From Burkholderiaceae bacterium (lineage in GTDB: Bacteria > Pseudomonadota > Gammaproteobacteria > Burkholderiales > Burkholderiaceae_C), in assembly GCA_019745555.1 (NCBI GenBank), contig JAIESX010000002.1:1-64000 (forward strand): DNA of 64,000 bases. The letters run 5' to 3'. The notes beneath the pieces are model-generated. The model worked only from the letters and a program-made list of their open reading frames with translations, was not told the origin of the DNA and did not search any database. A program made the translations under genes and the position numbers. Every line of letters starts with the position of its first letter. Within the stretch, counting starts at the first letter, position 1. This document shows positions 5,991 through 31,999 of this stretch, in pieces.

Positions 5991-6030
5991 GCGTCACCGA
6001 TCTGTCATGTCTCCGCCATAAAGGCGTCAC
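5991..6030 (+). promoter_or_regulatory. Tandem Pho box before the orphan gene at 6054
   Basis: Four PhoB-type heptamers lie at exact 11-bp steps: GCGTCAC (5991), CTGTCAT (6002), CCGCCAT (6013, degenerate) and GCGTCAC (6024). The first pair matches the consensus CTGTCAT-N4-CTGTCAC. CATAAA at 6017-6022 could be a -10 for the upstream pair. The orientation points to the gene starting at 6054. Confidence 0.65.
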
Positions 6031-6053
6031 GTAGCGTCCCCACACTGGAGGCC

Positions 6054-6554
6054 ATGCAAGAGCGCAGCCTTTCATCTCCCAGTGAATCCGGTGAGGCCGG
6101 CGTCGTCCCTCTGGTCGGGCTGGGTACCGGCCGTCTGCGGGATTCAGGCTGGGCACCGGTCTTTGCGGAAGGGGCAGACCCTGCCGAGCCGGCGCGCACC
6201 CAGGTGCTGCACCACTGGGCGCTGTCCCCCGAGCAGCGGGCGGCGGGCCTGCTGTTCCAGCCGCTGGACGGCAACCCGCGTCACGGCGTACTCGCGCTCT
6301 TCGTCGACGAGGGCGAGTTGTACGGCGCCATCGAGATCGTCGAGCGTCAGGGGCGCTGGCTCGTGATGCCGGACGACCTGCGCGCGCGCAGCCTGGCCGT
6401 GGCGGCCATGGCGCAAGCGGGGCCATGCGGCTTTCTGCGCTCCAGCATTGCCGGCACGCCGGACCGGCGTTTCATCTTCTTCAACACCCTGCGCGACGGG
6501 GCCACGGCCACGATGGTCGAACGCCGCCGCGATGGAGGCATCGCCGTCACCTGA
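6054..6554 (+). CDS. Uncharacterised protein, probable Pho regulon member
   Basis: I do not recognise this 166-residue protein. It has no signal peptide or membrane segment and is probably cytoplasmic. The N-terminal 30 residues look disordered (Ser/Glu/Gly-rich). The middle (HGVLALFVDEGELYGAIEIVE) and the C-terminus (RRFIFFNTLRDGATATMVERR) alternate hydrophobic and charged residues as in a small beta-rich fold. The start is supported by GGAGG just upstream. It is preceded by a four-heptamer Pho box and followed at once by a strong terminator, so it may be transcribed alone under phosphate control, immediately before olsB and plcP. Confidence 0.7.
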   Translation: MQERSLSSPSESGEAGVVPLVGLGTGRLRDSGWAPVFAEGADPAEPARTQVLHHWALSPEQRAAGLLFQPLDGNPRHGVLALFVDEGELYGAIEIVERQGRWLVMPDDLRARSLAVAAMAQAGPCGFLRSSIAGTPDRRFIFFNTLRDGATATMVERRRDGGIAVT

Positions 6555-6564
6555 AGGATATCTG

Positions 6565-6588
6565 GCCCCGCTGACCCGGGGCTTTTTT
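6565..6588 (+). terminator. Rho-independent terminator after the orphan gene
   Basis: Stem GCCCCG (6565-6570) / CGGGGC (6577-6582), six-base loop, then six T residues (6583-6588). It lies 10 bp after the stop codon at 6554 and 42 bp before olsB, so it either separates the two units or lets partial read-through continue. Confidence 0.85.
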
Positions 6589-6629
6589 ACACCTGCAACC
6601 GATCACCCAAGCAGACCAAGGAGAGAAAA

Positions 6630-7454
6630 ATGAAAGAACTGCCCAATCCCACGTTCCCGCTGTCACCCGTCGCCCTGCCCAGGGGGTCGCTTCACCGCCA
6701 AGCTCAGGACCACACTCAGGCGCAGCGCGGCGGCATTGAAGTTTCGTGGGCGCGCCATCTCGATGAAGTCCGTGCGGCGCAGCGACTGAGGCACGACATC
6801 TTTGCCGGCGAGATGGGCGCGCGCCTGTCGACCAAGGTGCCGGGACATGACGTGGACCTGTTCGATGACTACTGCGAGCACCTGCTTGTGCGCGACCAGG
6901 AGTCGCAGCAGGTCATCGGCACCTACCGCGTGCTCACGCCCGAGCAGGCCCAGCGCATCGGCAGCACCTACAGCGAGCTGGAGTTCGACCTGACGCGTCT
7001 GCGCGCCCTGCGTGAGCGCATGGTGGAGCTGGGCCGCAGCTGCGTGCACCCGGACTTCCGCCATGGTGGCGTCATCATGGCCCTCTGGGGCGCACTGGCC
7101 GAATTCATGGTGCGCAATAAGCTCGACACCATGATCGGCTGCGCCAGCATTCCCATGCTGCACAACGGCGTGGTCAGCGGTGATGTGGCGGCCAGCATCT
7201 GGCGCCAGGTACGCGAGACGCATCTGGCCCCCATCGAGCACCAGGTCTGGCCGCGCCTGCCGCTGCCGGTCGATGAACTCGACAGCCATCTGGACGTGGA
7301 GCCGCCGGCGCTGATCAAGGGCTATCTGCGCCTGGGTGCCAAGGTGCTGGGTGCACCGGCCTGGGACCCGGATTTCAACAGTGCCGACCTGCCCATGCTC
7401 ATGCGCATTGCCGACCTGCCGGCGCGCTACCGCAAGCACTTCCTGGGGGCCTGA
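6630..7454 (+). CDS. olsB: OlsB-like ornithine/amino acid N-acyltransferase (GNAT fold)
   Basis: A 274-residue GNAT-type acyltransferase of the haemolysin/OlsB family. OlsB transfers a 3-hydroxyacyl chain from ACP to ornithine, the first step of phosphorus-free ornithine lipids. Family blocks visible are LRHDIFAGEMGARL, DVDLFDDYCEHLLVRD, GTYRVLTPEQAQ, ELGRSCVHPDFRHGGVIMALW and IGCASIPM. AAGGAG upstream of 6630 supports the start. It overlaps plcP in TGATG. No OlsA-type O-acyltransferase is present in the window. The substrate is inferred; other family members act on glutamine or glycine. Confidence 0.68.
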   Translation: MKELPNPTFPLSPVALPRGSLHRQAQDHTQAQRGGIEVSWARHLDEVRAAQRLRHDIFAGEMGARLSTKVPGHDVDLFDDYCEHLLVRDQESQQVIGTYRVLTPEQAQRIGSTYSELEFDLTRLRALRERMVELGRSCVHPDFRHGGVIMALWGALAEFMVRNKLDTMIGCASIPMLHNGVVSGDVAASIWRQVRETHLAPIEHQVWPRLPLPVDELDSHLDVEPPALIKGYLRLGAKVLGAPAWDPDFNSADLPMLMRIADLPARYRKHFLGA

Positions 7455-8326
7455 TGAAGCACCCGCTCGAACACGGCAGCAACTGGCTGGGCCATGCCAT
7501 GGAACGCAGCACGATGCACGACCCCGATGAAGACAAGGGCGGCACGCGCCGCTACCGCACGGTCTTCATCTCGGACCTGCACCTGGGCACGCCGGGCTGC
7601 CGCGCCGAGGAGCTGCTGGCCTTTCTCAAGGCCAGTTCCTGCGAGCAGCTCTACCTGGTGGGTGACATCATCGATGGCTGGCAGCTGCGCCGCCGCTGGT
7701 TCTGGCCCCAGGCGCACAACGACGTGGTGCAGAAGCTGCTGCGCGCCGCACGCAAGGGCTGCCGCGTGGTCTTCGTGCCGGGCAACCACGACGAGTTCGC
7801 GCGCGGCTTCATCGGCCACCAGTTCGGCGGCATTGAGGTGGTGGACGACGCCGTGCACACCACGGCCGCGGGCCAGCGCCTGTGGGTCACGCACGGCGAC
7901 TACTTCGACGGCGTGATCCAGTACGCCAAGTGGCTGGCCTATGTGGGCGACAACCTCTACGAATTTGCCCTGCGCCTGAACCGCTACCTCAACCACCTGC
8001 GCGCCAAGTTCGGCCTGCCCTACTGGTCGCTCTCGGCCTACCTCAAGCTCAAGGTCAAAAAGGCCGTGAGCTTCATCAACGACTTCGAGCAGGCCGTGGC
8101 GCATGAAGCACGCAAGCGCGGCCACCACGGCGTGGTCTGCGGCCACATCCACCACGCCGAGATCCGCGAGATCGAGGGTGTGCTCTACTGCAACGACGGC
8201 GACTGGGTCGAAAGCCTGACGGCCCTGGTCGAGCACCACGACGGCCGGCTGGAGATTCTGCGGTGGGGCGATATGGCTCCGGCCCGAGACCTGCAGCAGA
8301 GCGCGGGTGCGCCTGCCACGGCGTGA
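7454..8326 (+). CDS. plcP: PlcP-like metallophosphoesterase (phospholipase C candidate)
   Basis: Calcineurin-type metallophosphoesterase of the UDP-2,3-diacylglucosamine hydrolase-like group (COG2908). All metal motifs are present: SDLHLG (D41, H43), GDIIDGW, GNHDE, THGDYFD and GHIHHAE. The phrases GWQLRRRWFWPQAHNDVVQKLLR and YWSLSAYLKLKVKKAV resemble the rhizobial PlcP proteins. In phosphate starvation these hydrolyse phosphatidylcholine, -ethanolamine and -glycerol to diacylglycerol. The ATG at 7454 overlaps the olsB stop, implying coupling. A role as LpxH in lipid A synthesis is the main alternative, but the pairing with olsB and the surrounding Pho boxes favour PlcP. Confidence 0.68.
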   Translation: MKHPLEHGSNWLGHAMERSTMHDPDEDKGGTRRYRTVFISDLHLGTPGCRAEELLAFLKASSCEQLYLVGDIIDGWQLRRRWFWPQAHNDVVQKLLRAARKGCRVVFVPGNHDEFARGFIGHQFGGIEVVDDAVHTTAAGQRLWVTHGDYFDGVIQYAKWLAYVGDNLYEFALRLNRYLNHLRAKFGLPYWSLSAYLKLKVKKAVSFINDFEQAVAHEARKRGHHGVVCGHIHHAEIREIEGVLYCNDGDWVESLTALVEHHDGRLEILRWGDMAPARDLQQSAGAPATA

Positions 8327-8392
8327 CGATGGCACGGCCCCCGGTGTGCAGATGGACGTCCATCGTCCCCACGCTGGCGCCGGCCAACACGC

Positions 8393-8433
8393 ATGTCATA
8401 TAAATGTCATCAAGACTGTCAACAATCTGTCAT
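8393..8433 (+). promoter_or_regulatory. Tandem Pho boxes before ppk1
   Basis: Two 18-bp boxes, ATGTCATATAAATGTCAT (8393-8410) and CTGTCAACAATCTGTCAT (8416-8433), give heptamers at 8393, 8404, 8416 and 8427. This is a near-consensus PhoB binding region. AACAAT (8421-8426) is a possible -10 for the upstream box. Confidence 0.85.
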
Positions 8434-8464
8434 GACTTTCTCATCCACGCATCTGGAGTCCAGG

Positions 8465-10543
8465 GTGCCGGCTGATCCCGTCTCCAACACCGCAGCGCTG
8501 CCCCTGCTGGACCGCGACCACAGCATCCTGGCCTTCAACTGGCGGGTCTTCGACTGGGCCTGTCGCCCCGACGTTCCCCTGCTCGAGCGCCTGCGTTATC
8601 TGTGCATCGTCTCGTCCAACCTCGATGAGTTCTTCGAAGTCCGCGCCGAGCCGCACCTGAGCGCGCACAAGGTGCAGAACCAGCAGGGCGTCTACACCGC
8701 CGCCTCCTTCGAGCGCATGTCCAGGGCCATCCACGAGCTGGTCGAGCGCCAGTATGCGCTCTACAACGAGCAGCTCATGCCGGCCTTCGAGAAGCAGGGC
8801 ATCAAGATCGTCTCCCACGGCGAGCGCAATGCAGCGCAGCGCCGCTGGGTGCACCAGTACTTCGAGAGCGACGTCAAGCCCTTGCTGATCCCCGTCGGGC
8901 TCGATCCCTCGCACCCCTTTCCGCAGGTGGCCAACAAGTCGCTCAACTTCATCGTGCGCCTGGGCGGCAACGATGCCTTCGGCCGCGCCAACGACATCGC
9001 CATCGTCAAGGTGCCGCGTGCGTTGCCACGCCTGATTCCCATGCCCGAGAAGCTGTGCGGCAAGCGCCGGCTCTTCGTCTCGCTCTCCAGCGTGATCCGT
9101 GCGCATCTGGACGAGCTCTTCCCCGGCCGAGAGGTCGGACAGTTCTCGCAGTTCCGAGTCACGCGCCATTCCGACCTGGCCGTGGACGAGGAAGACGTGA
9201 AAAACCTGCGCACCGCCCTGCGCCAGGGCCTGCAGCACCGTCACTATGGCCAGGCCGTACGCCTGGAGGTCTCGGCCGGGTGTTCGGAATATCTGTCCAG
9301 TTTTCTGCTGCGCCAGTTCGAGCTGCCCGAGGGCGCGCTCTTCCGTGTCCATGGGCCGGTGAACCTGGTGCGCCTGGGCCAGCTCGTGGATCTCGTGGAC
9401 GAGCCCCGCCTGCGCTTCCCGTCCTACAAGGCGGCCTATCCGGCCCAGCTGCAGCCGGGCCAGTCCATCTTCGAGCAGCTCAGGCGCGGCGACGTGCTGA
9501 TTCACCAGCCCTACGAAAGCTTCGACGGTGTGCTGGACTTCCTGCGCGAGGCCGTCAACGACCCGCAGGTGCTGGCCATCAAGCAGACCATCTACCGCAC
9601 CGGTGCCAACTCCGTGCTCATGGACCTGCTGCGCGAGGCCGTGCGCCGCGGCAAGGAGGTGACCGTGGTGCTCGAACTCAAGGCGCGCTTCGATGAAGAG
9701 GTCAACATCAACTGGGCCGAGCAGCTCGAGTCCATCGGCGTGCAGGTGCTCTACGGCGTGGTCGGGCTCAAGACCCACGCCAAGATGATGCTGGTCACGC
9801 GACGCGAGGGCAAGGTGCTCAAGCGCTATGCCCATCTGTCCACGGGCAACTACAACCCGGTGACGGCGCGCTTCTATACCGACCTGAGTCACCTCACGGC
9901 CGACGTCGCACTCACGGCTGATGTGGAGCACGTCTTCGTCCACCTGGCCGGGCAGAGCAGGCTGCCACGGCTCAACCGGCTCTGGCTGGCCCCCTTCCAT
10001 CTGCAGCGCAAGCTGATCGAAAAGATCGAGAGCCTGGGGGCGGCCGCCGCGGCCGGCAAGTCCACGCGACTCGTGGCCAAGATGAACGCGCTGACCGATG
10101 AGGCCATCATCCGCGCGCTCATCGCCGCCGGCCAGAAAGGCGTGAAGATCGATCTCATCGTGCGCGGCGCCTGCATGCTGCCGGCCCAGCTGCCCGGCCA
10201 GACCGCCAACATCCGTGTGCGCTCGCTGATCGGCCGCTTTCTCGAGCACGCGCGTGTCTTCTACTTCCGCGAGGGCGAGCAGGAAGAGCTGTACCTCTCC
10301 AGCGCCGACTGGATGAACCGCAACATGCTGCGGCGCGTGGAGCTGGCCTGGCCCGTGCTCGATCCAGTGTTGCGCCAGCGCATTGTCGACGAATGCCTGG
10401 TGGCCGGCCTGCACGATGTGCAGGGCTCCTGGGAACTGCGTCCCGATGGCCGCTACGAGCGAATAGGCCCGGCGACGGGCCGCGCGGCACCCGGCGCCCA
10501 AGAAGCTCTGATGGCGCGTTACGGACAACGCGAGGTACGTTGA
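8465..10543 (+). CDS. ppk1: Polyphosphate kinase 1
   Basis: Transfers the gamma-phosphate of ATP to polyphosphate. The N-terminal domain opens LLDRDHSILAFNWRVFDWA. Two phospholipase-D-like catalytic domains follow, with AIKQTIYRTG, the GLKTHAKMMLV autophosphorylation histidine region and the late YLSSADWMNRNM. The frame stays open to 8393, but the ATGs at 8393 and 8432 lie inside Pho boxes. GTG at 8465 has GGAG (8455-8458) six bases upstream and gives 692 residues, close to E. coli PPK (688). sixA follows after one base. Confidence 0.95.
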   Translation: MPADPVSNTAALPLLDRDHSILAFNWRVFDWACRPDVPLLERLRYLCIVSSNLDEFFEVRAEPHLSAHKVQNQQGVYTAASFERMSRAIHELVERQYALYNEQLMPAFEKQGIKIVSHGERNAAQRRWVHQYFESDVKPLLIPVGLDPSHPFPQVANKSLNFIVRLGGNDAFGRANDIAIVKVPRALPRLIPMPEKLCGKRRLFVSLSSVIRAHLDELFPGREVGQFSQFRVTRHSDLAVDEEDVKNLRTALRQGLQHRHYGQAVRLEVSAGCSEYLSSFLLRQFELPEGALFRVHGPVNLVRLGQLVDLVDEPRLRFPSYKAAYPAQLQPGQSIFEQLRRGDVLIHQPYESFDGVLDFLREAVNDPQVLAIKQTIYRTGANSVLMDLLREAVRRGKEVTVVLELKARFDEEVNINWAEQLESIGVQVLYGVVGLKTHAKMMLVTRREGKVLKRYAHLSTGNYNPVTARFYTDLSHLTADVALTADVEHVFVHLAGQSRLPRLNRLWLAPFHLQRKLIEKIESLGAAAAAGKSTRLVAKMNALTDEAIIRALIAAGQKGVKIDLIVRGACMLPAQLPGQTANIRVRSLIGRFLEHARVFYFREGEQEELYLSSADWMNRNMLRRVELAWPVLDPVLRQRIVDECLVAGLHDVQGSWELRPDGRYERIGPATGRAAPGAQEALMARYGQREVR

Positions 10544-10544
10544 G

Positions 10545-11006
10545 ATGGACCTGGTGCTGTGGCGTCACGCGGAGGCCCACGAGGCCGAGCCCGGGCAGGA
10601 CGATCTGTCGCGCGCGCTGACACCGCGTGGCGAGAAGCAGGCCGCGCGCATGGCGCTCTGGCTGGATCGCCAGCTCCCCGAGGGCACGCGCATCCTGGTC
10701 AGCCCGGCCAGGCGCACCGAGCAGACCGCCCAGTCCCTGGGGCGCAAGTACAAGTTGCGCGAGGAACTCAGTCCCAATGCCACGGTGGAGCAGCTGCTGC
10801 AGCTGGTGCAATGGCCCCAGGGCAAGGGCGTGATCCTGGTCGTCGGGCATCAGCCCGTGCTGGGGCAGACCATCGCGCGCCTGCTGGCCATCCACGGCAG
10901 CGAATGCAGCGTGAAGAAGGGCGCGGTCTGGTGGCTGCGCCACCGCCTGCGTGACGCGGTGTCGCAGATCACCCTGGTGTCGGTGCAGTCGCCCGACACG
11001 CTGTAG
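10545..11006 (+). CDS. sixA: Phosphohistidine phosphatase SixA
   Basis: Small histidine-phosphatase superfamily enzyme of 153 residues. It has the RHAEA catalytic motif at residues 7-11, LVSPARRTEQTAQ and the second catalytic histidine in VVGHQPVLG. SixA proteins dephosphorylate phosphohistidine on HPt domains or PTS proteins. It starts one base after the ppk1 stop, so it is almost certainly in the same PhoB-controlled transcript. Confidence 0.88.
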   Translation: MDLVLWRHAEAHEAEPGQDDLSRALTPRGEKQAARMALWLDRQLPEGTRILVSPARRTEQTAQSLGRKYKLREELSPNATVEQLLQLVQWPQGKGVILVVGHQPVLGQTIARLLAIHGSECSVKKGAVWWLRHRLRDAVSQITLVSVQSPDTL

Positions 11007-11014
11007 GCGCAAGC

Positions 11015-11422
11015 TCAGCCTTTCTTCGGAGTGCCGGCCTTGGCCTTGGTTGCTGGCAGCGCCTGCAGCGCGGCCAGCAGGGCCTTGTCGTTGAGCGCTG
11101 CGAGCAGCTTCAGGCCGGCGCGCAGCAACTCGCTCTTCTTGCCCGGGCGTCCCAGCGTCGCGCTGCGTTGCTTCAGTGCTCCCAGGACCTCGTACTCGTC
11201 GCGGGGCATGGAGAAGCTGTCGCGCACACGCTTGACCTTCTTGGCGCCCTGTTCCGGTGCCGCCTGCCTGCCCGCTGAGGTCCGGCCTGTCTTCACGGTC
11301 TTTTTCTGCGGCGCCGTCGTGGCCTTGCGCGGGGCGGGTTGGCGTGCCGCCTTCGCGCTGGCTGTGCGGGGCTTGGGGGAGGGCTGGGCCGGTGTGGCGG
11401 AGGAAGTCGTAGTGGTGGTCAT
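11015..11422 (-). CDS. Basic protein with histone-H1-like N-terminus and possible ribbon-helix-helix C-terminus
   Basis: 135 residues. Residues 1-65 are a disordered Thr/Ala/Pro/Lys/Arg-rich tract like bacterial H1-type tails. From about residue 66, KRVRDSFSMPRDEYEVLGALKQRSATLG...KSELLRAGLKLL resembles a ribbon-helix-helix unit (a beta strand, then two helices), and a short KAKAGTPKKG tail closes the protein. This suggests a DNA-binding nucleoid or regulatory role; no family name is recognised. Convergent with sixA (8 bp apart). TATAAA on the minus strand near 11455 could be its -10. Confidence 0.65.
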   Translation of the reverse strand: MTTTTTSSATPAQPSPKPRTASAKAARQPAPRKATTAPQKKTVKTGRTSAGRQAAPEQGAKKVKRVRDSFSMPRDEYEVLGALKQRSATLGRPGKKSELLRAGLKLLAALNDKALLAALQALPATKAKAGTPKKG

Positions 11423-11596
11423 GGTCCAGGCAGGCTCGGGTCAGTGAAAGACTTTTTATACCGTCTTCCTCGCGTGCCCGCTACCGTGTGTGGCGAACGT
11501 CATTGAAGCGAAACACAGACGTCACGAAATGGTCATGGTGCCGGGGCACAGTTGGCACATACAAACAGTCGTTGGGGGCAAGATGCCCCGCCCAGC

Positions 11597-11890
11597 ATGT
11601 CGGACCTTCTTTGTGATGAGGCGGCGACCGCGCCCGTCGCGTCGCGCCCTCCCATGATCGATCACGTCCGCCTCTTCGCCGCCGAGTTCTGGCCCACCCT
11701 CAGCGGACGCGAAGGCCCGCTGGCCCGCCTGCTGCGCGAGGATGCCCTCTACCCGGTGTTCCAGCCCGTCGTCGATCTCAAGACCGCGGCCGTGCACGCC
11801 CACGAGGCGCTGATCCGCGGGCCCGCAGGCAGCTGGCTGCAGTCGGGGACGGCCGCCAACGTTGTGCAGCCACTCGCACTCGCGGCCTAG
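11597..11890 (+). pseudogene. Truncated EAL (c-di-GMP phosphodiesterase) domain remnant
   Basis: A 97-codon frame from ATG 11597 (ATG 11654 is an alternative). Its last ~50 residues read LLREDALYPVFQPVVDLKTAAVHAHEALIRGPAGSWL, the first strand and helix of an EAL domain with the signature in HEALIRGP. The rest of the ~240-residue domain, with all remaining metal and substrate residues, is missing. The frame drifts into unrelated residues and stops at 11890, three bases before the Pho boxes of ugd. A GGGGCA-AGA-TGCCCC hairpin (11575-11589) precedes it. It is best read as a deletion remnant. Confidence 0.65.
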
Positions 11891-11892
11891 AC

Positions 11893-11932
11893 CCGTCATC
11901 GCTTCTTCACGCCGGCGACACGGCGTGGTCAC
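11893..11932 (+). promoter_or_regulatory. Tandem Pho box before ugd
   Basis: Four heptamers at exact 11-bp steps: CCGTCAT (11893), TCTTCAC (11904), GCGACAC (11915) and TGGTCAC (11926). Each is a partial match to CTGTCAT/C, but the phasing is regular. CATCAT at 11943-11948 sits 10 bp downstream, the normal distance from a Pho box to a -10. Confidence 0.55.
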
Positions 11933-11973
11933 ATGACGCTTCCATCATCTCCTCAACCTAGAAGGAGATGTCC

Positions 11974-13398
11974 ATGAAAGTCGCCGTCATCGGAGCAGGG
12001 TATGTGGGGCTGGTCACCGCCAGCTGTCTGGCCGAGCTGGGCCATGAGGTGGTCTGCATGGACAGCGACCCGCGCCGTGTGGAGCTGTTGCGCGCAGGTG
12101 TCGTGCCGATCTACGAGCCGGGTCTGGACGCGCTGATCGAACGCAGTACCCGCGCCCAGCGCCTCTTTTTCACTATCCGCCTGGCCGATGCACTCGAGGC
12201 CGCCGAGGTGCTGTTCATCGCCGTCGGCACCCCGCCGCGCGAGGACGGCTCGGCCGACCTGGGCCATGTGCTCGAGGTGGCGCGCCAGGTGGGCGCCACG
12301 CTGAAGCGCCCGCTCGTCGTGGTCAACAAGTCCACCGTACCCGTGGGCACGGCCGAGCGCGTGCAGGCCGCGCTGGATGCCGGCCTGGCCGCGCGCGGCC
12401 TCGGCGGCCTGCCGGTGGCCGTGATCTCCAACCCCGAATTCCTCAAGGAAGGCGCGGCCATCGACGACTTCATGCACCCTGACCGCATCGTCATCGGCCT
12501 GCCCGCGGGTGAGGCTGGCGCGCAGGCCCGCACGGCCATGACGCAGCTCTACGCCTCGCTCAACCGCCACCACGAACGCACGGTCTGGATGGACCTGCGC
12601 AGCGCCGAGCTGACCAAGTACGCGGCCAATGCCATGCTGGCCACGCGCATCTCCTTCATGAACGAGATGGCCAACCTGGCCGACCTCGTGGGCGCCGACG
12701 TGGACGCGATCCGCCGTGGCATCGGCAGCGACAGCCGCATCGGCCCGAGCTTCCTCTACGCAGGCACGGGCTACGGCGGCAGCTGCTTCCCCAAGGACAC
12801 GCGCGCGCTCATGCAGACCGCGCAGCAGCACGGCAGCCAGATGCAGCTCGTCGAGGCCACGGAGCGCGTCAACCAGGCCCAGCGCCAGGTGCTGGCACGC
12901 CGCGTCATGCAGCACTTCGGCGCCGACCTGCGCGGCCGCCGCTTCGCACTCTGGGGCCTGGCCTTCAAGCCGCAGACCGACGACATGCGCGAGGCGCCCA
13001 GCCGCCACCTGATCCGCCAGCTCATCCTGCGCGGCGCCGAGGTGGTGGCGCACGACCCGGTGGCGCTGGAGACCGCGCGTGCCGCGCTGGCCGACGATCT
13101 GGCCGACATCCCACAGGGCCTGGCGCGCCTGCAGCTCGTGGGGGACGCCATGGCCGCACTCGACGGCGCCGACGCGCTGATCGTGGTCACCGAGTGGAAG
13201 CAGTTCCACAACCCGGACTTCGCGCTGATCCGCGAGAGCCTGCGCCGCCCGCTGATCATCGACGGCCGCAACCTCTACGACCCGCAGCAGCTCCAGGCCC
13301 TGGGGCTTGCCTACCAGGGCATCGGCCGGCGCAACGACCTGGCCGGCGAACGTGTCGTGAGCTCGGCTGCCCAGCAGGCCCTGGCCGAGGCGGCTTGA
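11974..13398 (+). CDS. ugd: UDP-glucose 6-dehydrogenase
   Basis: Oxidises UDP-glucose to UDP-glucuronate with NAD+. The N-terminal Rossmann motif is [29 protein letters not shown] and STVPVGT follow. The catalytic cysteine lies in [14 protein letters not shown], and the C-terminal domain contains [13 protein letters not shown]. An in-frame ATG at 11968 abuts the AAGGAG at 11962-11967, so ATG 11974, six bases from it, is the better start (474 residues). It heads a unit with lplT. Beyond exopolysaccharide, UDP-glucuronate is the donor for glucuronosyl-diacylglycerol, a phosphorus-free membrane lipid. Confidence 0.94.
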
Positions 13399-24622: not shown

Positions 24623-24637
24623 GGAGGTCTCAAAGGC

Positions 24638-24702: not shown

Positions 24703-25194
24703 TCAGCGACGCACGGGCGGCATCAGCACGCGGTCGACCACGTGCACCACGCCGTTGGTAGCGGCCACGTCGGCGCGGGTCACCATGGCGTCTTCCACGG
24801 TGACGAAGGCACCGGCGCGGGCCAGGCCCACATTGGCGCCCTGCACGGTCTTGGCCGGGCCGTTCTTGACGTCGGCGGCCATGACCTTGCCGGCTACCAC
24901 GTGGTAGCTGATCACGTCCTTGAGGCGGGCCGGGTTGGCGGCCAGCTCTTCCAGGGTCTTGGCGGGCACGGCCTTGAAGGCCTCGTTGCTGGGCGCGAAG
25001 ACGGTGTAGGTGCCGGACTTCAGCGTGTCCTGCAGGCCGGCCTTCTGGACCAGGCTGTTCAGGGTGCTGAGCTGCGGGTCGCGGGCCAGGGTGTCGGCCA
25101 GGTTGGCGGGCTGGTTCATGCTGGCGCAGCCGGCCAGGCCCCAGGCCACGGCAGTGGCAAGGATGAGGCGGCGGGTGAGGGCGGTCTTGTTCAT
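24703..25194 (-). CDS. FAS1 (fasciclin) domain lipoprotein
   Basis: 163 residues: a basic N-terminus, hydrophobic stretch and lipobox LAGC (cysteine near residue 23), then one FAS1 domain. The domain shows LADTLARDPQLSTLNSLVQKAGL, the TVFAPSNEAF motif, LKDVISYHVVAGKV and the closing NGVVHVVDRVLMP. FAS1 proteins mediate surface adhesion or matrix binding. AGGAG lies six bases before ATG 25194, so this start is preferred to the adjacent ATG 25197. Divergent from pstS. Confidence 0.88.
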   Translation of the reverse strand: MNKTALTRRLILATAVAWGLAGCASMNQPANLADTLARDPQLSTLNSLVQKAGLQDTLKSGTYTVFAPSNEAFKAVPAKTLEELAANPARLKDVISYHVVAGKVMAADVKNGPAKTVQGANVGLARAGAFVTVEDAMVTRADVAATNGVVHVVDRVLMPPVRR

Positions 25195-25305
25195 CATGGG
25201 CTCCTGAGTGGGAAAGAGGAACCCGAAGGCTATCTTTGGCATGTGACAGACGCGTGACGGTGATTTGAAAAGTGCGCGGCGCGCTACACTCGCGGTGTAG
25301 GGGAT

Positions 25306-25339
25306 ATGTCACGTCCCTGTCACAAAAGCTTCGTAAATT
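25306..25339 (+). promoter_or_regulatory. Pho box and -10 of the pst operon
   Basis: ATGTCACGTCCCTGTCAC (25306-25323) matches the two-heptamer PhoB consensus. TAAATT at 25334-25339, exactly 10 bp downstream, serves as a -10 at the standard Pho-promoter spacing. A second phased pair is not evident. Confidence 0.85.
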
Positions 25340-25376
25340 TGGCTGGCTTTCCCGTCAATCAACCAGGAGTCATTCC

Positions 25377-26423
25377 ATGAAAGCTAGCTTGAAGTTTTCG
25401 ACGATGCTGGGCCTTGCGGCCAGCGCCACCCTGCTGCTGGCAGGTACGGCCAACGCCCAGAACGTGACCGGTGCCGGTGCAACCTTCCCGGCCCCGCTGT
25501 ATGCCAAGTGGGCTTCCGAATACGCCAAGGCCACGGGCAACAAGGTCAATTACCAGTCCGTGGGTTCGGGCGCCGGCATCCGCCAGATCGACGCCAAGAC
25601 CGTGGACTTCGGCGCTTCCGACATGCCCCTGAAGGACGAGGACCTGGCCAAGAAGGGCCAAGTGCAGTTCCCCACCGTGATCGGTGGCGTGGTGCCGGTG
25701 GTCAACATCCAGGGTGTCGCCCCGGGCCAGCTCAAGCTGACCGGCCCGCTGATCGCCGACATCTACCTGGGCAAGATCACCAAGTGGACCGACCCGGCCA
25801 TCACCGCGCTCAACCCCGGCGTGAAGCTGCCCGACGCCACCATCGCCCCGGTGCGCCGTGCCGACGGCTCGGGCACCACCTTTCTGTTCACCAACTACCT
25901 GAGCAAGGTCAGCCCCGAGTGGAAGGACAAGGTCGGTGATGGCACCGCCGTGAACTGGCCCACGGGCGCCGGCGGCAAGGGCAACGAGGGTGTGGCCGCT
26001 TTCGTCGGCCGCCTGCCCAACTCCATCGGCTACGTCGAGTACGCCTATGTGAAGCAGAACAAGATGACCTACGCGCTGATACGCAACAAGGACGGCAACT
26101 TCGTGCCGCCCAGCGACACGGCCTTCAAGGCCGCCGCTGCCGGTGCCGACTGGCTCAAGAGCTTCTACCAGATCCTGACCGAGCAGTCGGGCAAGGACGC
26201 CTGGCCGATCTCCGGCGCCACCTTCATCCTGATGCACAAGGTGCAGGACAAGCCCGCCAGCGCCGCCGGTTCTCTCAAGTTCTTCGCCTGGGCCTACGCC
26301 AACGGCGACAAGATGGCCGACGACCTGGACTACGTGCCCATGCCCGCCAGCGTGAAGGCCGCCATCGAGAAGTCCTGGGCCGAGATCAAGGACGCCTCGG
26401 GCAAGCCCATCGCCTACAAGTAA
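25377..26423 (+). CDS. pstS: Phosphate ABC transporter, periplasmic phosphate-binding protein
   Basis: High-affinity phosphate receptor. Signal peptide [20 protein letters not shown] ending ...GTANAQ, then the conserved [35 protein letters not shown] and [20 protein letters not shown] loops that bind phosphate. 348 residues. AGGAG eight bases upstream fixes ATG 25377; the open frame extends to 25272 across the Pho box and is not coding there. pstC follows after 4 bp. Confidence 0.96.
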
Positions 26424-26427
26424 TCTG

Positions 26428-27411
26428 ATGCCACAACAGCACACCATGAGTTCCTCCCCACCCGCGCAACGCCCCCGCTCCGGCGCCTGGTTCGACGTCG
26501 TCTTCGGCTGGCTGGCCCAGGGCGCGGCCTGGGTGACTCTGGCGCTGCTGGCCAGCATCCTGATCTCGCTCCTGGTCGGCGCCTGGCCGGCCATCGAGCG
26601 CTTCGGCCTGGGTTTCCTGACGAATGCGGTCTGGGACCCGGTGCAGGAGAATTTCGGTGGCCTGGTGATGATCTACGGCACCCTGGCCACCTCCTTCATC
26701 GCCTTGCTGATCGCGGTGCCCGTGAGTTTCGGCATCGCGCTCTTTCTCACGGAAATGTGCCCGGCCTGGCTCAGGCGCCCGCTGGGCACGGCCATCGAAC
26801 TGCTGGCGGCGGTGCCGTCCATCGTCTACGGCATGTGGGGCCTGCTGGTCTTCGGCCCCATCCTCGCGACCTATGTGCAGCAGCCGCTGCAGAAATTGCT
26901 GACCGGTGTGCCGTATCTCGGCGCACTCGTCTCCGGGCCCCCGGTGGGCATCGGTATCCTCTCGGCCGGCATCATCCTGGCCATCATGATCATCCCCTTC
27001 ATCGCCGCGGTGATGCGCGATGTGTTCGAGGTCACGCCCCCACTGCTCAAGGAGTCGGCCTATGGCCTGGGTTCCACCACCTGGGAGGTGGTCTCCAAGG
27101 TGGTGCTGCCCTACACCAAGACCGGCGTGGTCGGCGGCATCATGCTGGGTCTGGGCCGTGCCTTGGGTGAGACCATGGCCGTGACCTTCGTGATCGGCAA
27201 CATGAACCAGCTCGATTCGTTGAGTCTGTTCGAGGCCGCCAACAGCATCACCTCGGCGCTGGCCAACGAGTTTGCCGAGGCCTCCGCAGGCCTGCACCAG
27301 GCTTCGCTGATCTACCTGGGCCTGGTGCTGTTCTTCATCACCTTCGTGGTGCTGTCGCTGTCCAAGCTGCTGCTCCTGCAGCTCAAGAAGAACGAAGGAG
27401 CCAAGTCATGA
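26428..27411 (+). CDS. pstC: Phosphate ABC transporter permease PstC
   Basis: Inner-membrane permease, 327 residues with six main membrane segments. Contains the binding-protein-dependent transport signature region [45 protein letters not shown] and the PstC-typical [20 protein letters not shown] 26446 is a possible alternative start. The last codons overlap pstA in ATGA. Confidence 0.95.
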
Positions 27412-28265
27412 GTGCACTCGACGACGTTCGCCGCGCGGCTTTTGCGAAGCGCAAGCGCGTCAACTTCATCGCGCTTGCGCTCTCCCTCGCGGCCATGGCC
27501 TTCGGTCTGTTCTGGCTGTTCTGGATCCTCTGGGAGACGCTGCGCCTGGGGATCGGCGGCCTGGCCTGGGCAACGTTCACGCAGATGACCCCGCCACCCA
27601 ACGAGGTGGGCGGCATTGCCAACGCGATCTACGGCTCCTTCCTCATGGTCATGCTGGCCACCCTGGTGGGTACGCCCATTGGCATCCTGGCCGGCATCTA
27701 CCTGGCCGAGTACAACCCCAAGGGGCTGCTGGCCGAGGTGACGCGTTTTGTCAACGACATCCTGCTGTCGGCGCCCTCGATCGTGATCGGTCTTTTCGTT
27801 TACGCCGTGATCGTGGCGCGCTTCAAGTCCTTCTCGGGCTGGGCTGGCGTGATCGCGCTGGCGCTGATCGTGATTCCCGTCGTGATCCGTACCACCGAGA
27901 ACATGCTGCAGCTCGTGCCCTCGGCCATGCGCGAGGCGGCCTATGCGCTGGGCACGCCCAAGTGGAAGGTCGTCACCATGATCACCCTGCGCGCGGCCCT
28001 GGCCGGTGTGGTGACCGGGGTGCTGCTCGCCGTGGCCCGCATTGCCGGCGAGACCGCACCGCTGCTGTTCACAGCGCTCAGCAACCAGTTCTGGACCTCT
28101 GACCTTTCGAATCCGATGGCCAGCCTGCCCGTGACCATCTTCAAGTTTGCCATGAGTCCCTACGAGAACTGGCAGCAGCTGGCCTGGGCCGGTGTGCTGC
28201 TGATCACCGTGGCGGTGCTCGGCCTCAACATCCTGGCGCGCGTGCTGACGCGTCGCAAGCACTGA
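27408..28265 (+). CDS. pstA: Phosphate ABC transporter permease PstA
   Basis: Second Pst permease, 285 residues and six membrane segments. PstA-type motifs are [31 protein letters not shown] and [50 protein letters not shown] overlap with pstC indicates coupled translation. pstB follows. Confidence 0.95.
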
Positions 28266-28308
28266 CGTTCCCATGTACACCAGCGACTATTCCCAAGCAA
28301 GGCAACCC

Positions 28309-29094
28309 ATGGACCCCATTTCCAACCCGGCCGAGATGCCCGCCCCGAAGATCTCGGTGCGCGACCTGAACTTCTACTACGGCAAGTTCCACGCGCTCAA
28401 GGGCATCAACCTGGACATTCCCGAGAACAAGGTCACGGCCTTCATCGGCCCCTCGGGTTGCGGCAAGTCCACGCTGCTGCGCGTGTTCAACCGCATGTAC
28501 GAGCTGTACGCGGATCAGCGCGCCGAAGGGCAGGTGCTGCTCGACGGCGAGAACCTGCTGACCAGCAAGCAGGACGTGGCCCTGCTGCGCGCCAAAGTGG
28601 GCATGGTGTTCCAGAAGCCCACACCCTTCCCGATGTCGATCTACGACAACATCGCCTTCGGCATCAAGCTCTTCGAAAGCCTCAGCACGACCGACATGGA
28701 GGAGCGTGTCGAGTGGGCGCTGCGCAAGGCGGCGCTGTGGAACGAGGTCAAGGACAAGCTCAAGCAAAGCGGCTCCAGCCTCTCGGGCGGCCAGCAGCAG
28801 CGCCTGTGCATTGCGCGCGGCATCGCGATCAAGCCCGAGGTCATCCTGCTCGACGAGCCCTGCTCGGCGCTGGACCCGATCTCCACCGCCAAGATCGAGG
28901 AGCTGATCACCGAGCTCAAGACCGATTACACGGTGGTCATCGTCACGCACAACATGCAGCAGGCCGCGCGCTGCAGCGACTACACGGCCTATATGTACCT
29001 GGGCGACCTGGTGGAGTTCGGCTCCACGGAACAGATGTTCTTCAAGCCCACGCGCAAAGAGACGGAAGATTACATCACTGGGAGGTTCGGATGA
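28309..29094 (+). CDS. pstB: Phosphate ABC transporter ATPase PstB (altered 3' end)
   Basis: ATP-binding subunit with Walker [10 protein letters not shown], the Q-loop [14 protein letters not shown], signature LSGGQQQR, Walker [13 protein letters not shown] and the H-loop [10 protein letters not shown] 28309 (MDPISNP) gives 261 residues; an in-frame ATG at 28273 is an alternative. The coding sequence ends with EDYITGRFG at 29094. A second, diverged copy of the last codons lies 92 bp downstream, showing that the 3' end has been rebuilt by an insertion. Confidence 0.95.
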
Positions 29095-29186
29095 ACCGAG
29101 CTGTTATGCAATGGTGCAGGATAACTTCGCGCAGCGAAGTTAAGCGCAGCGGACGTAACCACTACATCACGGGCCGCTTTGGCTAA
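29071..29186 (+). repeat. Insertion scar: duplicated pstB tail flanking a palindrome
   Basis: The codons for YITGRFG-stop occur twice, at 29071-29094 (in frame with pstB, stop TGA) and at 29163-29186 (stop TAA). They share the exact first 8 bases TACATCAC and the same protein but differ at synonymous positions. Between them lies a perfect palindrome with 9-bp arms TAACTTCGC (29122-29130) and GCGAAGTTA (29134-29142) around GCA. The second copy overlaps the AAGGAG of phoU as an original pstB end would. Confidence 0.8.
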
Positions 29187-29197
29187 GGAGTGACGAC

Positions 29198-29899
29198 ATG
29201 CCGGATAAACACCTTTCCACCCAGTTCGACACCGAACTGAGTTCCGTCTCCAGCCGCGTCATGGAAATGGGCGGCCTGGTCGAGACCCAGGTCCAGCAGG
29301 CCGTGCAGGCCCTGGGCCAGTTCAACGCCGAGGCGGCGCGCCAGGTCATCGAGCTGGAAACGCGCGTCAACGCCATGGACGTGGAGCTGGACCACGAGAT
29401 CGCCTCCATCATCGGCCGGCGCCAGCCCACCGCGCGCGACCTGCGCCTGCTCATGGCCGTGGCCAAGGCCGTGGCCAACCTCGAGCGCGCGGGTGACGAG
29501 GCCGAGAAGATGGCGCGCATGGTGCTCTCGATCATCCAGAGCGGTGCCCCGCGCAACCTGCCGGCGTCCGAGCTGCGCACCGCAGCCGACCTGGCGGCCG
29601 GCCAGCTGCGCAAGGCGCTCGATGCCTTCGCCCGCCTGGACGTGGTGACCGCCGTGGCCATCCTGCGCGAGGACGACCTGATCGACAAGGAGTTCGACAG
29701 CTTCGTGCGCGTGCTCATCACCTACATGATGGAAGACCCGCGCACCATCTCCAGCAGCCTGGACCTGCTCTTCCTGGCCAAGGCGATCGAGCGCGTCGGC
29801 GACCACGCCAAGAACATCGCCGAGCTCATCATCTACATCGTCAAGGGTGCCGACATCCGTCACGCTTCGATCGAAGAAATCGAAGCGGTCCTCAAATGA
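29198..29899 (+). CDS. phoU: Phosphate signalling accessory protein PhoU
   Basis: Links Pst transporter state to PhoR and represses Pho signalling when phosphate is plentiful. 233 residues forming two three-helix PhoU repeats. Metal-binding-type motifs are LERAGDEAEKMARM in the first and AIERVGDHAKNIAE in the second. AAGGAG seven bases before ATG 29198. Overlaps phoB in ATGA. Confidence 0.95.
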   Translation: MPDKHLSTQFDTELSSVSSRVMEMGGLVETQVQQAVQALGQFNAEAARQVIELETRVNAMDVELDHEIASIIGRRQPTARDLRLLMAVAKAVANLERAGDEAEKMARMVLSIIQSGAPRNLPASELRTAADLAAGQLRKALDAFARLDVVTAVAILREDDLIDKEFDSFVRVLITYMMEDPRTISSSLDLLFLAKAIERVGDHAKNIAELIIYIVKGADIRHASIEEIEAVLK

Positions 29900-30609
29900 A
29901 GCAGCCCGCGGTTCTGGTGGTCGAGGACGAGCCGGCGATCGCCGAGCTGATCGCCGTCAACCTGCGCCACAACGGTTTCCGGCCCACGCTGGCTATGGAC
30001 GGTGACAGCGCCCAGCGCGAGATCGACGCCATGCTGCCGGATCTGGTGCTGCTGGACTGGATGCTGCCCGGCGCCAGCGGCCTGACCCTGGCGCGGCGCT
30101 GGCGCAGCGACCCGCGGACCAAGGCGGTGCCCATCATCATGCTGACGGCGCGTGGCGACGAAGCCGACCGCGTGGCCGGCCTCGATGCCGGAGCCGACGA
30201 CTACATGGCCAAGCCCTTCTCCACCAAGGAGATGCTGGCGCGCATCCGCGCCGTGCTGCGCCGTCGCGCCCCCGAGCAGACCTCGGTCACGCTGGAGATC
30301 GGCCAGCTCAGGCTCGACACCGCCACGCACCGCGTCACTTACGCCGAGCAGTCGCTCAAGCTCGGCCCCACCGAGTTCAAGCTGCTGCAGTACCTCATGA
30401 GCCATGCCGAACGCGTGCACAGCCGCGGCCAGCTGCTCGACAAGGTCTGGGGCGACCACGTCTTCATCGAGGAACGCACGGTGGACGTGCACATCAAGCG
30501 CCTGCGCGAGGCCCTGGGCGAGGCCGCACCCATGGTGGAAACCGTGCGCGGTGCGGGCTACCGGCTCTCGGCCCAGGCCCTGAGCCCCGCCGCACCGGCG
30601 CGCGGCTGA
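29896..30609 (+). CDS. phoB: Phosphate response regulator PhoB
   Basis: OmpR/PhoB-type regulator, 237 residues. The receiver domain has the acidic pair D11/E12 and phosphoacceptor D54 (LVLLDWMLPG), then the conserved threonine and lysine (MLTARG, MAKPFS). The C-terminal winged helix contains RVHSRGQLLDKVWGDHVFIEERTVDVHIKRLR, the recognition helix that binds Pho boxes. This is the presumed activator at the boxes found at 5991, 8393, 11893, ~15900-15984 and 25306. Confidence 0.96.
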   Translation: MKQPAVLVVEDEPAIAELIAVNLRHNGFRPTLAMDGDSAQREIDAMLPDLVLLDWMLPGASGLTLARRWRSDPRTKAVPIIMLTARGDEADRVAGLDAGADDYMAKPFSTKEMLARIRAVLRRRAPEQTSVTLEIGQLRLDTATHRVTYAEQSLKLGPTEFKLLQYLMSHAERVHSRGQLLDKVWGDHVFIEERTVDVHIKRLREALGEAAPMVETVRGAGYRLSAQALSPAAPARG

Positions 30610-30634
30610 ACCGTCCCGGTCCCGGCGTCTTCCC

Positions 30635-31999
30635 ATGCTGCTGCGCATCCTGTCCTTTCTTCTGCTGCAGGGCTTGGGTGGCGTGCTGGGCGTCTGGCTG
30701 GCGCCGCAGTCGCTGGAGATCCGCGGTGGCCTGGCCGGCATGCTGGCCGCCGGCACGGTCTGGGTGCTGTGGGATTTCACGCGTGGCCTGCGCGTGCTGC
30801 AGTGGCTGCGTGGCGACGAGCTGTCCGAGGCGCCGCTGCGCCTGGGGCTGTGGGGTGCGGTGGCCGAGCGTGTGCGGCGTGCGGCGCGTGTGCGCGAGCA
30901 GGCCACGCGTGAGAGTGACCGCCGCCTGCAGGATTTTCTGGCGGCGCTGCAGGCCTCGCCCAACGGGGTGGTGCTGCTGGATGCAAGTGGACGCATCGAA
31001 TGGTTCAACCAGACCGCATCCAGCCATCTGGGCCTCGATCCGGCGCGCGACCAGCTGCAGCACCTCGTGAACCTGGTGCGCGACCCGGCCTTCACGGCCT
31101 ATGTCGCCGCGGGCGACTACCACGGCAGTGTGACCATGCCGGGGCGTGCGCACAGCAGCTCGCACCCGGTGCGCATCTCGGTGCAGCTGCACGACTACGG
31201 CCAGGGCCGGCGCCTGCTGCTGTCGCGCGACATCACCATGTTCGAGCAGGCCGAGGCCATGCGGCGCGACTTCGTGGCCAATGTCTCGCACGAGATCCGT
31301 ACGCCGCTGACCGTGCTCTCGGGCTTTGTCGAGACCCTGCAGACCCTGCCGCTGGAGGCCAGCGAGCGTGCGCGCTATCTGGACCTCATGGCCCAGCAGG
31401 CTGGACGCATGCAGTCTCTGGTCAGCGACCTGCTCACGCTCTCGCGTCTGGAGGGCAGCCCTTTGCCTGGGGCGGGTGAATGGATACCGGTGGCCGGTCT
31501 CATGGGCCAGCTGCAACAGGAAGCGCAAGCGCTCTCGGCCGTGCTCAACCCGCCCATGACCGGTCCGGGCCAGGTGCTGGATTTCGAGCCGGCGCCTCCC
31601 TGCGAGCTGGGGGGCACACCGGGTGAGCTGCACAGCGCGCTGTCCAATCTCGTGAGCAATGCCGTGCGCTACACGCCGGCCGGCGGCACGGTGCGTTGCG
31701 GCTGGCTGCTGCATGCCGACGGCCGTGCCGAATTCTGGGTGCAGGACAGCGGACCGGGCATCGCCCCGGAGCACATCCCGCGCCTGACCGAGCGTTTCTA
31801 CCGCGTGGACCGCAGCCGTTCGCGTGACACCGGGGGCACGGGCCTGGGCCTGGCCATTGTCAAGCATGTGGTGCAGCGCCACGGTGCGGAGCTCAAGGTG
31901 GAGAGCACGCCGGGCAAGGGTTCGCGCTTTGCCATCGTCTTTCCGGCCAGCCGCGTGCGGCGCGTCTCGCAGCCGGCCGTCCTGGCCGCAGCGGCCTGA
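30635..31999 (+). CDS. phoR: Phosphate regulon sensor kinase PhoR
   Basis: Inner-membrane histidine kinase of 454 residues. Two N-terminal hydrophobic segments without a large periplasmic domain are followed by a PAS domain (LQASPNGVVLLDASGRIEWFN). Then comes a HisKA domain with phosphoacceptor H219 in VSHEIRTPLT, and an ATPase domain with N, G1 and G2 boxes (LSNLVSNAVRY, VQDSGPGI, GGTGLGLAIVKHV). Starts 25 bp after phoB, closing the pst-pho operon. Confidence 0.95.
   Translation: MLLRILSFLLLQGLGGVLGVWLAPQSLEIRGGLAGMLAAGTVWVLWDFTRGLRVLQWLRGDELSEAPLRLGLWGAVAERVRRAARVREQATRESDRRLQDFLAALQASPNGVVLLDASGRIEWFNQTASSHLGLDPARDQLQHLVNLVRDPAFTAYVAAGDYHGSVTMPGRAHSSSHPVRISVQLHDYGQGRRLLLSRDITMFEQAEAMRRDFVANVSHEIRTPLTVLSGFVETLQTLPLEASERARYLDLMAQQAGRMQSLVSDLLTLSRLEGSPLPGAGEWIPVAGLMGQLQQEAQALSAVLNPPMTGPGQVLDFEPAPPCELGGTPGELHSALSNLVSNAVRYTPAGGTVRCGWLLHADGRAEFWVQDSGPGIAPEHIPRLTERFYRVDRSRSRDTGGTGLGLAIVKHVVQRHGAELKVESTPGKGSRFAIVFPASRVRRVSQPAVLAAAA

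Follow-up and report, generated by a model that had tools for sequence, protein, structure and literature searches.

Bacteria short of phosphate are known to replace their phospholipids with glycolipids, with betaine lipids, or with ornithine lipids and further N-acyl amino-acid lipids. Lipid renovation by PlcP and Agt has been described in Pseudomonas aeruginosa and marine bacteria (PMC8528852, PMC4796936), and the btaA-btaB betaine lipid route adjoins plcP (PMC4796936). A figure legend in the latter paper lists uncharacterised aminolipids together with a betaine lipid, so mass spectra may already await their genes, and the words aminotransferase and decarboxylase are absent from its main text.

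The locus described here was analysed within a window of 64 kb, i.e. the whole 64,000-nucleotide stretch of a Burkholderiaceae genome. It resembles the PlcP-Agt system in its Pho-box-linked metallophosphoesterase and GT4 glycosyltransferase genes, and an Agt-type gene stands beside plcP in L209 and L210, the two genomes of the same genus that were examined; the locus differs in that the Agt-type gene is missing and a different GT4 is tied to a trio of genes for an Mpo1-like membrane protein, a class-III aminotransferase (AT3) and a phosphatidylserine decarboxylase (PSD). Ornithine lipid synthesis by OlsBA or OlsF has its parallel in an OlsB-like protein encoded upstream of plcP and in an OlsF gene adjoining the trio in a related locus (L083, 841 bits), although the OlsB-like protein falls under the OlsB equivalog cut-offs. 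With btaA-btaB the locus would share an amine-bearing, phosphorus-free lipid coupled to PlcP, whereas PF11899, which we take to be the BtaA family, had no match in the present genome (88.6% complete).

The Pho-box-bearing membrane-lipid island that a sequence-only reading had proposed in this betaproteobacterium is real and sits beside phosphate-sensing genes, and its gene content looks suited to exchanging phosphate-bearing membrane lipids for phosphate-free ones; we infer its control by PhoB itself. No part of the island is better conserved or less understood than the Mpo1-like/AT3/psd trio, of which no earlier description was found. It may make an amine-bearing membrane lipid, although we infer the chemistry. 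A conserved, Pho-box-linked trio with enzyme types not met in the known replacement routes points to an unassigned lipid, and its genes are named candidates for tracing that lipid genetically.

Gene content of the island

The first gene (6054–6554, + strand) encodes a hypothetical protein of 166 aa, which had no Pfam or NCBIfam match in profile searches and has a relative of 84% identity at the same position in the nearest genome, L209. It is followed by an OlsB-like N-acyltransferase (6630–7454, +; PF13444, 120.6 bits), whose best NCBIfam match is the OlsB model NF052554. Its scores of 154 and 148.5 bits are under the OlsB equivalog cut-offs of 350 and 320, although no other NCBIfam family comes close to these two. 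The next product (7454–8326, +) is a calcineurin-like metallophosphoesterase over the cut-offs of PF12850 (48.1 bits) and PF00149 (33.9 bits), and is a predicted PlcP-like phosphohydrolase. As the initial reading required, it is not orthologous to LpxH: it scored 40 bits to the lpxH model against a cut-off of 190.35, and the LpxH of the genome (192 bits) is encoded on another contig, C27.

Downstream follow a gene which we take to be ppk1 from its translation (8432–10543, +; start set downstream of the Pho boxes, with matches in relatives), a UDP-glucose dehydrogenase family gene, ugd (11968–13398, +; Pfam and NCBIfam), and an lplT-like transporter gene (13422–14669, +, start approximate; NF008397 at 440.5 bits, cut-off 297). 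The block of interest comprises the GT4 gene (14643–15875, −), the Mpo1-like gene (16029–16697, +), the AT3 gene (16748–18394, −) and psd (18459–19322, +). In agreement with the earlier placement of phoB-phoR in the same stretch, the region 25377–31999 carries genes presumed to be pstSCAB (25377–29094, +; translations, with the same gene runs in relatives) and phoU, followed by phoB and phoR (29198–31999 in all, +; response-regulator and kinase domains found).

The GT4 gene at 15875, which the initial reading proposed to compare with Agt, is not the plcP-partner gene. In L209 and L210 the partner gene lies between plcP and ppk1, and sequence comparison found it missing from the present genome: at 8271–8394, 123 bp separate the matching flanks here versus 1110 bp in L209 (blastn), where the gene of about 1 kb is present. 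The 15875 protein carries GT4 Pfam domains and is 35–38% identical to the partner glycosyltransferase (38% to the plcP-adjacent one of L134); its gene lies 6.3 kb from plcP and tracks the trio.

Pho boxes in the window and genome

Pho boxes were searched for as CTGTCAT-N4-CTGTCAT (heptamers in 11-bp phase, mismatches counted) and with a weight matrix that we wrote from the consensus. The pattern matched 13 times with up to 3 mismatches in the window versus 3.7 expected, a number reached in 0 of 100 shuffles, and the matrix gave 11 sites scoring at least 14, whereas 15 simulated sequences averaged 1.1 such sites and never had more than 4. Only 8 sites with up to 2 mismatches were present in the whole genome (3 for a reversed control pattern); 5 of them are in the window, all within 10 kb of island, and represent three promoters: 6002, the array 8393, 8416 and 8427, and 15967.

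Of the promoters assigned Pho heptamers by the sequence-only reading, all but that of ugd were borne out. Phased heptamers precede the 6054 gene (5991–6019, +; 6002–6019 being one of the 8 genome-wide sites), and the strongest array stands before ppk1 (8393–8444, +; pattern, matrix and genome scan) and recurs in L209. Between GT4 and the Mpo1-like gene (15898–15984), a Pho-like site faces GT4 (15898–15915, −; pattern and matrix) and a Pho box faces the Mpo1-like gene (15956–15984, +; pattern, matrix and genome scan), and a further box precedes pstS (25306–25323, +; pattern and matrix). A Pho box for ugd is not supported, as the nearest upstream sites score just 10.3 (11519–11536) and 10.8 (11444–11461), and simulated windows average 16 sites of at least 10. 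A site scoring 13.6 at 11963 is on the opposite strand and overlaps the ugd start itself.

Pho-like sites also face the Peripla_BP_6 gene at 23450 (25243–25271, −; scores 13.3 and 10.9). The olsB and plcP genes showed no Pho box of their own in the window. The 6054 gene is separated from olsB by a terminator-like hairpin (6564–6583; 12 such hairpins were found in 5900–25400, with 8.7 expected), so that the 5991 box need not drive olsB-plcP.

The first reading overlooked heptamers that face AT3 from the gap between that gene and psd (18403–18465, −; matrix scores 11.6, 15.9 and 14.0). Taken alone they are unexceptional, the best site per simulated 64 kb having scored 12.4 to 18.8, and they carry weight because they are conserved in relatives. 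Sites in the gaps of relatives were ranked among windows of equal length taken from their own locus (top 5%, p ≤0.05), with 29 of 37 AT3/psd and 20 of 37 GT4/mpo pairs testable. A top-5% Pho-like site was found in 25 of 29 AT3/psd gaps and in 19 of 20 GT4/mpo gaps; against shuffles of each gap the counts were 24/29 and 17/20, and with GC-matched control windows they dropped to 20/29 and 18/20. Four loci (L086, L087, L082, L046) had no top-5% site in the AT3/psd gap, and PhoB control is therefore not universal.

Conservation of the block

Neighbours were counted in those 62 of the 80 named AT3 loci that extend 3.5 kb to either side: all 62 carried psd and the Mpo1-like gene, and 60 carried the block GT4. 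The Mpo1-like gene, AT3 and psd lay within 6.4 kb in all 37 other loci. In 100 genomes of the one family from which co-occurrence was counted, including all that is reported for plcP, and in which kin are not independent, the block GT4 was present in 25/25 AT3-carrying versus 5/75 AT3-free genomes (p 6e-19), and plcP in 25/25 versus 46/75 (p 6e-5). The GT4 goes with the Mpo1-like/AT3/psd trio and is not the partner gene of plcP. The suggestion of a single lipid module stands in so far as plcP co-occurs with the aminotransferase block, but requires revision as to its loose membership, since the Mpo1-like gene, AT3 and psd form a tight, conserved trio.

Enzymes of the trio

The nearest solved relative of AT3, by both sequence and fold, is the aminotransferase domain of MycA (PDB 6kfm, 6kfu), with 229 bits versus 155 bits for the best glutamate-1-semialdehyde aminomutase (GSAM) among 36 matches to solved structures; beta-selective transaminases are among the further matches. 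Class-III phospholyases were not named among the 36. Against the hemL (GSAM) model AT3 scored 167.9 bits, under the cut-off of 527.3. The PLP-lysine motif, shared with the MycA domain, is retained in 117/117 AT3 sequences. The MycA domain sits in an NRPS/PKS (mycosubtilin synthase), whereas AT3 is a stand-alone reading frame outside any NRPS/PKS line, both in the window and in the loci inspected, and carries an N-terminal hydrophobic helix. In the predicted model this helix spans residues 2–28, where confidence is low to intermediate (block pLDDT 54, 72, 80), and it suggests that AT3 may act on a lipid substrate. Reading frames in the loci were called at 90 residues or more, a length below which a carrier protein would fall.

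Yeast Mpo1 is a 2-hydroxy fatty acid dioxygenase acting in phytosphingosine breakdown. The Mpo1-like protein matches PF06127 weakly (20.5 bits, under the gathering score of 24), and two better Mpo1-like matches occur elsewhere in the genome. Its motifs YH[HQ]xxxNxxLH and GHFxFEP are kept in 111/111 sequences and presumably correspond to the metal-binding His residues of yeast Mpo1. As the Pfam score is below gathering and the predicted model had no match among solved structures, calling the protein an oxygenase is conjecture.

The psd product exceeds the TIGR00163 cut-off (173.3 versus 111.75 bits) and matches the solved PSD 6l06 at 1.4e-32. It is a second, long-form enzyme, the other PS_Dcarbxylase match of the genome being on contig C53, and may simply use phosphatidylserine as its substrate. 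The motifs YHRFH and [HL]GST, which with SPxD[GA] we take to be catalytic, were found in 114/114 sequences, and SPxD[GA] in 109/114; five PSDs deviate from the latter pattern as written here. In 10 of the 37 loci, though not in the window, the trio is accompanied by a phospholipid N-methyltransferase-like (Pmt-like; R-type by our own reading) gene. The clustered enzymes are closest to the phosphatidylethanolamine methyltransferase 8ys9, but at 136 and 151 bits are below the NCBIfam PmtA cut-off of 390.

Proposed pathway and alternatives

The reading we prefer, at a probability of roughly 45%, is a PhoB-controlled membrane-lipid renovation module in which the trio builds a primary-amine lipid. 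PlcP would strip phosphate head groups to leave diacylglycerol, the OlsB-like enzyme would start an N-acyl amino-acid lipid, and GT4 would form a glycolipid from a UDP-sugar, perhaps UDP-glucuronate supplied by Ugd. The Mpo1-like protein, as an iron oxygenase, might generate a carbonyl by oxidising a hydroxyl or hydroxy-acid that is linked to a lipid, and membrane-anchored AT3 would aminate this carbonyl; the second PSD would then take off a carboxyl to give the amine head group, and the Pmt-like enzyme, where clustered, would N-methylate it. These reaction steps, their order and the phosphorus-free product are putative, and no enzyme making the carbonyl- or acid-bearing starting lipid was identified in the present analysis. 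The more specific proposal is rather unlikely, i.e. that the trio is a new PhoB-controlled route, on PlcP-derived diacylglycerol, to a phosphorus-free amine-headgroup lipid mimicking phosphatidylethanolamine (or phosphatidylcholine with the Pmt-like enzyme) in Burkholderiales and several other Pseudomonadota families.

Ordinary phospholipid turnover would have PSD make phosphatidylethanolamine and the Pmt-like enzyme phosphatidylcholine, both feeding PlcP, while AT3 and the Mpo1-like protein degrade released head groups or 2-hydroxy acids. The good PSD score with its 6l06 match and kept motifs, the likeness of the clustered methyltransferase to 8ys9 and the presence of plcP in every AT3-carrying genome of the 100 agree with it, but the genome already has another PSD, and the kinship of AT3 to an acyl-chain aminotransferase domain, with phospholyases not named among its matches, and its lipid-suggesting helix make this explanation improbable. 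The same kinship, by sequence and fold, and the beta-selective transaminases favour a MycA-like amination of 3-oxoacyl thioesters to 3-amino fatty acyl lipids, beside an OlsB/OlsF pathway using 3-hydroxyacyl chains; olsB was present on 12 of the 62 flanked loci, and in L083 the trio has OlsF as a neighbour. This leaves the PSD and the Pmt-like gene unexplained and seems distinctly unlikely.

Quite doubtful, too, is that lipid replacement is confined to the PlcP-Agt and ornithine-lipid routes already known and the trio is a separate system sharing PhoB control, e.g. in sphingoid or 2-hydroxy fatty acid metabolism. The role of yeast Mpo1 speaks for it, as does the module of Sphingomonas parapaucimobilis, about 10 kb from spt-, acp- and ceramide reductase-like genes (named by reading their products). 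Against it, weakly, the spt-like gene had no match in the 37 or the 80 named loci, just 3 of the 37 having 11 kb on a side; AT3 co-occurs with plcP, and in several families the trio stands beside lipid-remodelling genes. In favour of the primary-amine lipid module, the neighbours in other families are lipid genes, and 10 of the 80 named loci carry phoU, pstB and pstA beside the block.

Genome and gene order

The assembly holding the window comprises 2.99 Mb in 57 contigs and is 88.6% complete. The gene order in the window is ftsH, folP, glmM, an SBF-family transporter gene, a hypothetical gene at 6054, an olsB-like gene, a plcP-like gene, ppk1, sixA and ugd, followed by lplT, GT4, the Mpo1-like gene, AT3, psd, a mixed stretch, ppx, a periplasmic binding protein gene, pstSCAB, phoU, phoB and phoR. 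From their translations, we take ftsH, folP, glmM, ppk1, pstSCAB and phoU to be the genes so named. Four genes form the block considered here, i.e. the glycosyltransferase gene GT4 (14643–15875, minus strand), the Mpo1-like gene (16029–16697, plus strand), the class-III aminotransferase gene AT3 (16748–18394, minus strand) and psd (18459–19322, plus strand), the last three being referred to as the trio. The AT3 protein shares 97% identity with its counterpart in a Hylemonella sp. MAG (L096). Between psd and a DUF1330 gene, positions 19330–20420 have a GC content of 51%, against 66–68% on either side; this stretch contains a small reading frame (19982–20392) without Pfam match, and looks like inserted DNA.

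Conservation of the block

In the same family, 38 of 150 genomes carried AT3, and all four block genes were present in each of the 20 loci read around it. Among 398 genomes of the phylum, 22 more AT3-bearing genomes were found, and the 17 further loci fetched (one from the same order, one from the same class, and 15 from other classes) all contained the Mpo1-like gene, AT3 and psd. In none of the 37 loci is the trio longer than 6.4 kb, and its median span is 3.3 kb. A set of 80 named loci, the best 80 of at least 582 confirmed AT3 loci, shares at least five contigs, judged by their length, with the same-family loci above, and in 62 of the 80 AT3 is flanked on each side by 3.5 kb. In these 62, psd and the Mpo1-like gene were each found in 62/62, and the block GT4 in 60 at ≥45% identity; at any identity 61 loci have a match, but the glycosyltransferase match in locus L173 is the plcP-adjacent gene and not the block GT4. 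Anywhere on the same 62 loci, lplT was present in 34, plcP in 24, ugd in 21 and olsB in 12, and phoU together with pstB and pstA was present in 10 of the 80. Distance correlations were 0.68–0.76 within the block and 0.46–0.64 with plcP, and were given no weight, because relatedness alone yields such values.

Other genes accompany the block in part of the 37 loci. A Pmt-like methyltransferase gene was found in ten, all from other classes, and OlsF scored above the cut-off in L083. A PPK2 polyphosphate kinase family gene (as in L038, 11132–12241) occurs in six of the 37, recalling the ppk1 of the window. Six of the 37 loci encode a long protein that ends in a GT4 domain at its C-terminus; in the two scanned, L083 (9349–12174) and L092 (6607–9483), the proteins have ca. 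950 residues and an N-terminal half without Pfam match, and neither locus has a separate block GT4. To judge by sequence, this N-terminal half gives the impression of a PHP-type phosphoesterase. The block is also carried by three MAG contigs (L139, L165 and L166) titled Akkermansia muciniphila, Bordetella parapertussis and Klebsiella pneumoniae, with AT3 proteins 69–71% identical to that of the window; these record titles are probably wrong.

Co-occurrence with plcP and the plcP neighbourhood

Among 100 genomes of the family, representing 99 genera, 25 carried AT3, 30 carried GT4 and 71 had a plcP match at E ≤1e-40, plcP being counted in this family only. All 25 AT3 genomes had plcP, against 46 of the 75 without AT3 (Fisher 6e-5, kinship ignored), and all 25 had GT4, against 5 of the 75 (Fisher 6e-19, phylogeny likewise ignored). 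When restricted to the 89 genomes at least 90% complete, the corresponding figures with and without AT3 were 22/22 and 43/67 for plcP, and 22/22 and 5/67 for GT4.

The protein encoded at 7454–8326 (plus strand) belongs to the LpxH/PlcP superfamily of metallophosphoesterases, and returned no match at 0.001 against PDB sequences. Clear orthology to LpxH, which would have contradicted the PlcP assignment of the sequence-only reading, was not seen, and the protein was rejected as LpxH since an LpxH orthologue is encoded elsewhere in the genome. The same reading had taken GT4 at 15875 for the Agt-type partner of plcP, which did not hold. In the nearest relative (L209), olsB, plcP, an Agt-type glycosyltransferase gene and ppk1 stand in a row, and the order is the same in L210, likewise from the same genus and without an AT3 match, the label Agt-type referring to position and family only. 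In the window, the matching flanks are separated by 123 bp (8271–8394), against 1110 bp in L209, and the partner gene is absent from the assembled sequence; similarity to L209 ends 55 bp short of the plcP end. When the plcP-adjacent glycosyltransferase of locus L134 was compared with this assembly, the sole match was GT4 itself, at 38% identity. GT4 at 15875 is thus the only Agt-like glycosyltransferase found here, yet not the plcP partner.

Pho boxes

Phased Pho heptamers in the window, reported from sequence alone, do exceed chance. With at most two mismatches, the Pho-box pattern has eight sites in the whole assembly, five of which, at three promoters, lie within window positions 6002–15984, and the backward-read control pattern has three matches. 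The box also proposed before ugd was dropped, as no convincing site is present there in the window, and an array in the gap between AT3 and psd had been overlooked.

In relatives, a Pho-like site was ranked against same-length windows of the same locus, in those of the 37 loci where the genes are divergent within 900 bp. The gap between GT4 and the Mpo1-like gene had a top-5% site in 19 of 20 testable loci, all except L035 (18/20 with GC-matched windows), and the gap between AT3 and psd in 25 of 29, all except L086, L087, L082 and L046 (20/29 with GC-matched windows). With a shuffle control of each gap, the counts were 17/20 and 24/29, respectively. A wider count covered 119 loci from overlapping sets and 220-bp upstream stretches of genes matched at >45% identity with enough sequence upstream. 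Top-5% stretches preceded GT4 in 84/90, the Mpo1-like gene in 94/110, AT3 in 83/116 and psd in 80/114 cases, and olsB in 11/17, ppk1 in 4/6 and pstS in 4/5, against 1/12 and 2/14 for the control genes sixA and h11015. The count was 17/49 for lplT, 17/34 for ugd, whose sites may not be independent of neighbouring boxes, and 7/34 for plcP, which may be low because plcP often comes after olsB.

The neighbours of the three remaining genome sites were named by reading of the sequence. One site lies 5′ of an AraC-type regulator gene (L211), one falls within a TonB-receptor-like reading frame (L212), and one precedes the gene for a second Peripla_BP_6-like protein (L213). The site at L211 position 1520 is the sole perfect match in the genome, and no phosphate gene was recognised in the 5 kb read around it. 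Two Peripla_BP_6-like genes of this genome (window 23450–25271 and L213 2585–3830) are each preceded by Pho-like sites; the first is divergent from pstS, and the second, on contig C39, is Peripla_BP_6-like by reading of the sequence.

Enzymes of the trio and their possible product

The AT3 model (whole-model pLDDT 80.7, pTM 0.84) has an N-terminal helix at residues 2–28 (block pLDDT 54, 72, 80), after which the body is a class-III aminotransferase. Its nearest solved relative by sequence is the aminotransferase domain of MycA (229 bits; best GSAM 155), which also took ranks 1 and 2 in the fold search. MycA, according to PMC3870968, takes a beta-ketothioester as substrate and aminates it at the expense of glutamine. 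HemL was rejected on the hemL model score. The Mpo1-like protein has weak likeness to the Pfam Mpo1 family, with its two His motifs kept in 111/111; its model is helical (pLDDT 85.9) and gave no fold-search match at E ≤0.001. The motifs of PSD, the psd product, are kept, and this PSD is a second copy in the genome.

PSD requires an alpha-amino acid and yields a primary amine, an aminotransferase converts a carbonyl to an amine, and Pmt methylates a primary amine. These amine chemistries are clustered with an oxygenase-like membrane protein and lie behind Pho boxes, and in the sample of 100 genomes the cluster was confined to those bearing plcP; an aminolipid of phosphate starvation explains this best. 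We infer the order of the trio steps, and a product that would be without phosphorus. Ordinary phosphatidylethanolamine turnover is a main rival. A further main rival has a 3-amino-acyl lipid as the trio product. The trio may also be an unrelated system which shares PhoB control, another main rival. DGTS formation via BtaA was rejected, as PF11899 had no match in this genome (88.6% complete).

Membrane renovation by PlcP-Agt and by ornithine lipids is already known. For the trio, no description was recognised in the literature among the matches listed, most subscription papers being outside the search, and the words aminotransferase, transaminase, decarboxylase and dioxygenase are absent from the main text of an aminolipid review (PMC11631085). 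A sphingolipid link, in the form of an spt-like gene, had no match in the 37 loci or in the 80 named loci (best 80 of at least 582), few of which extend far enough to decide. On a Sphingomonas parapaucimobilis plasmid (L093), the trio and a methyltransferase gene are located ca. 10 kb from serine palmitoyltransferase-, acyl carrier protein- and ceramide reductase-like genes.
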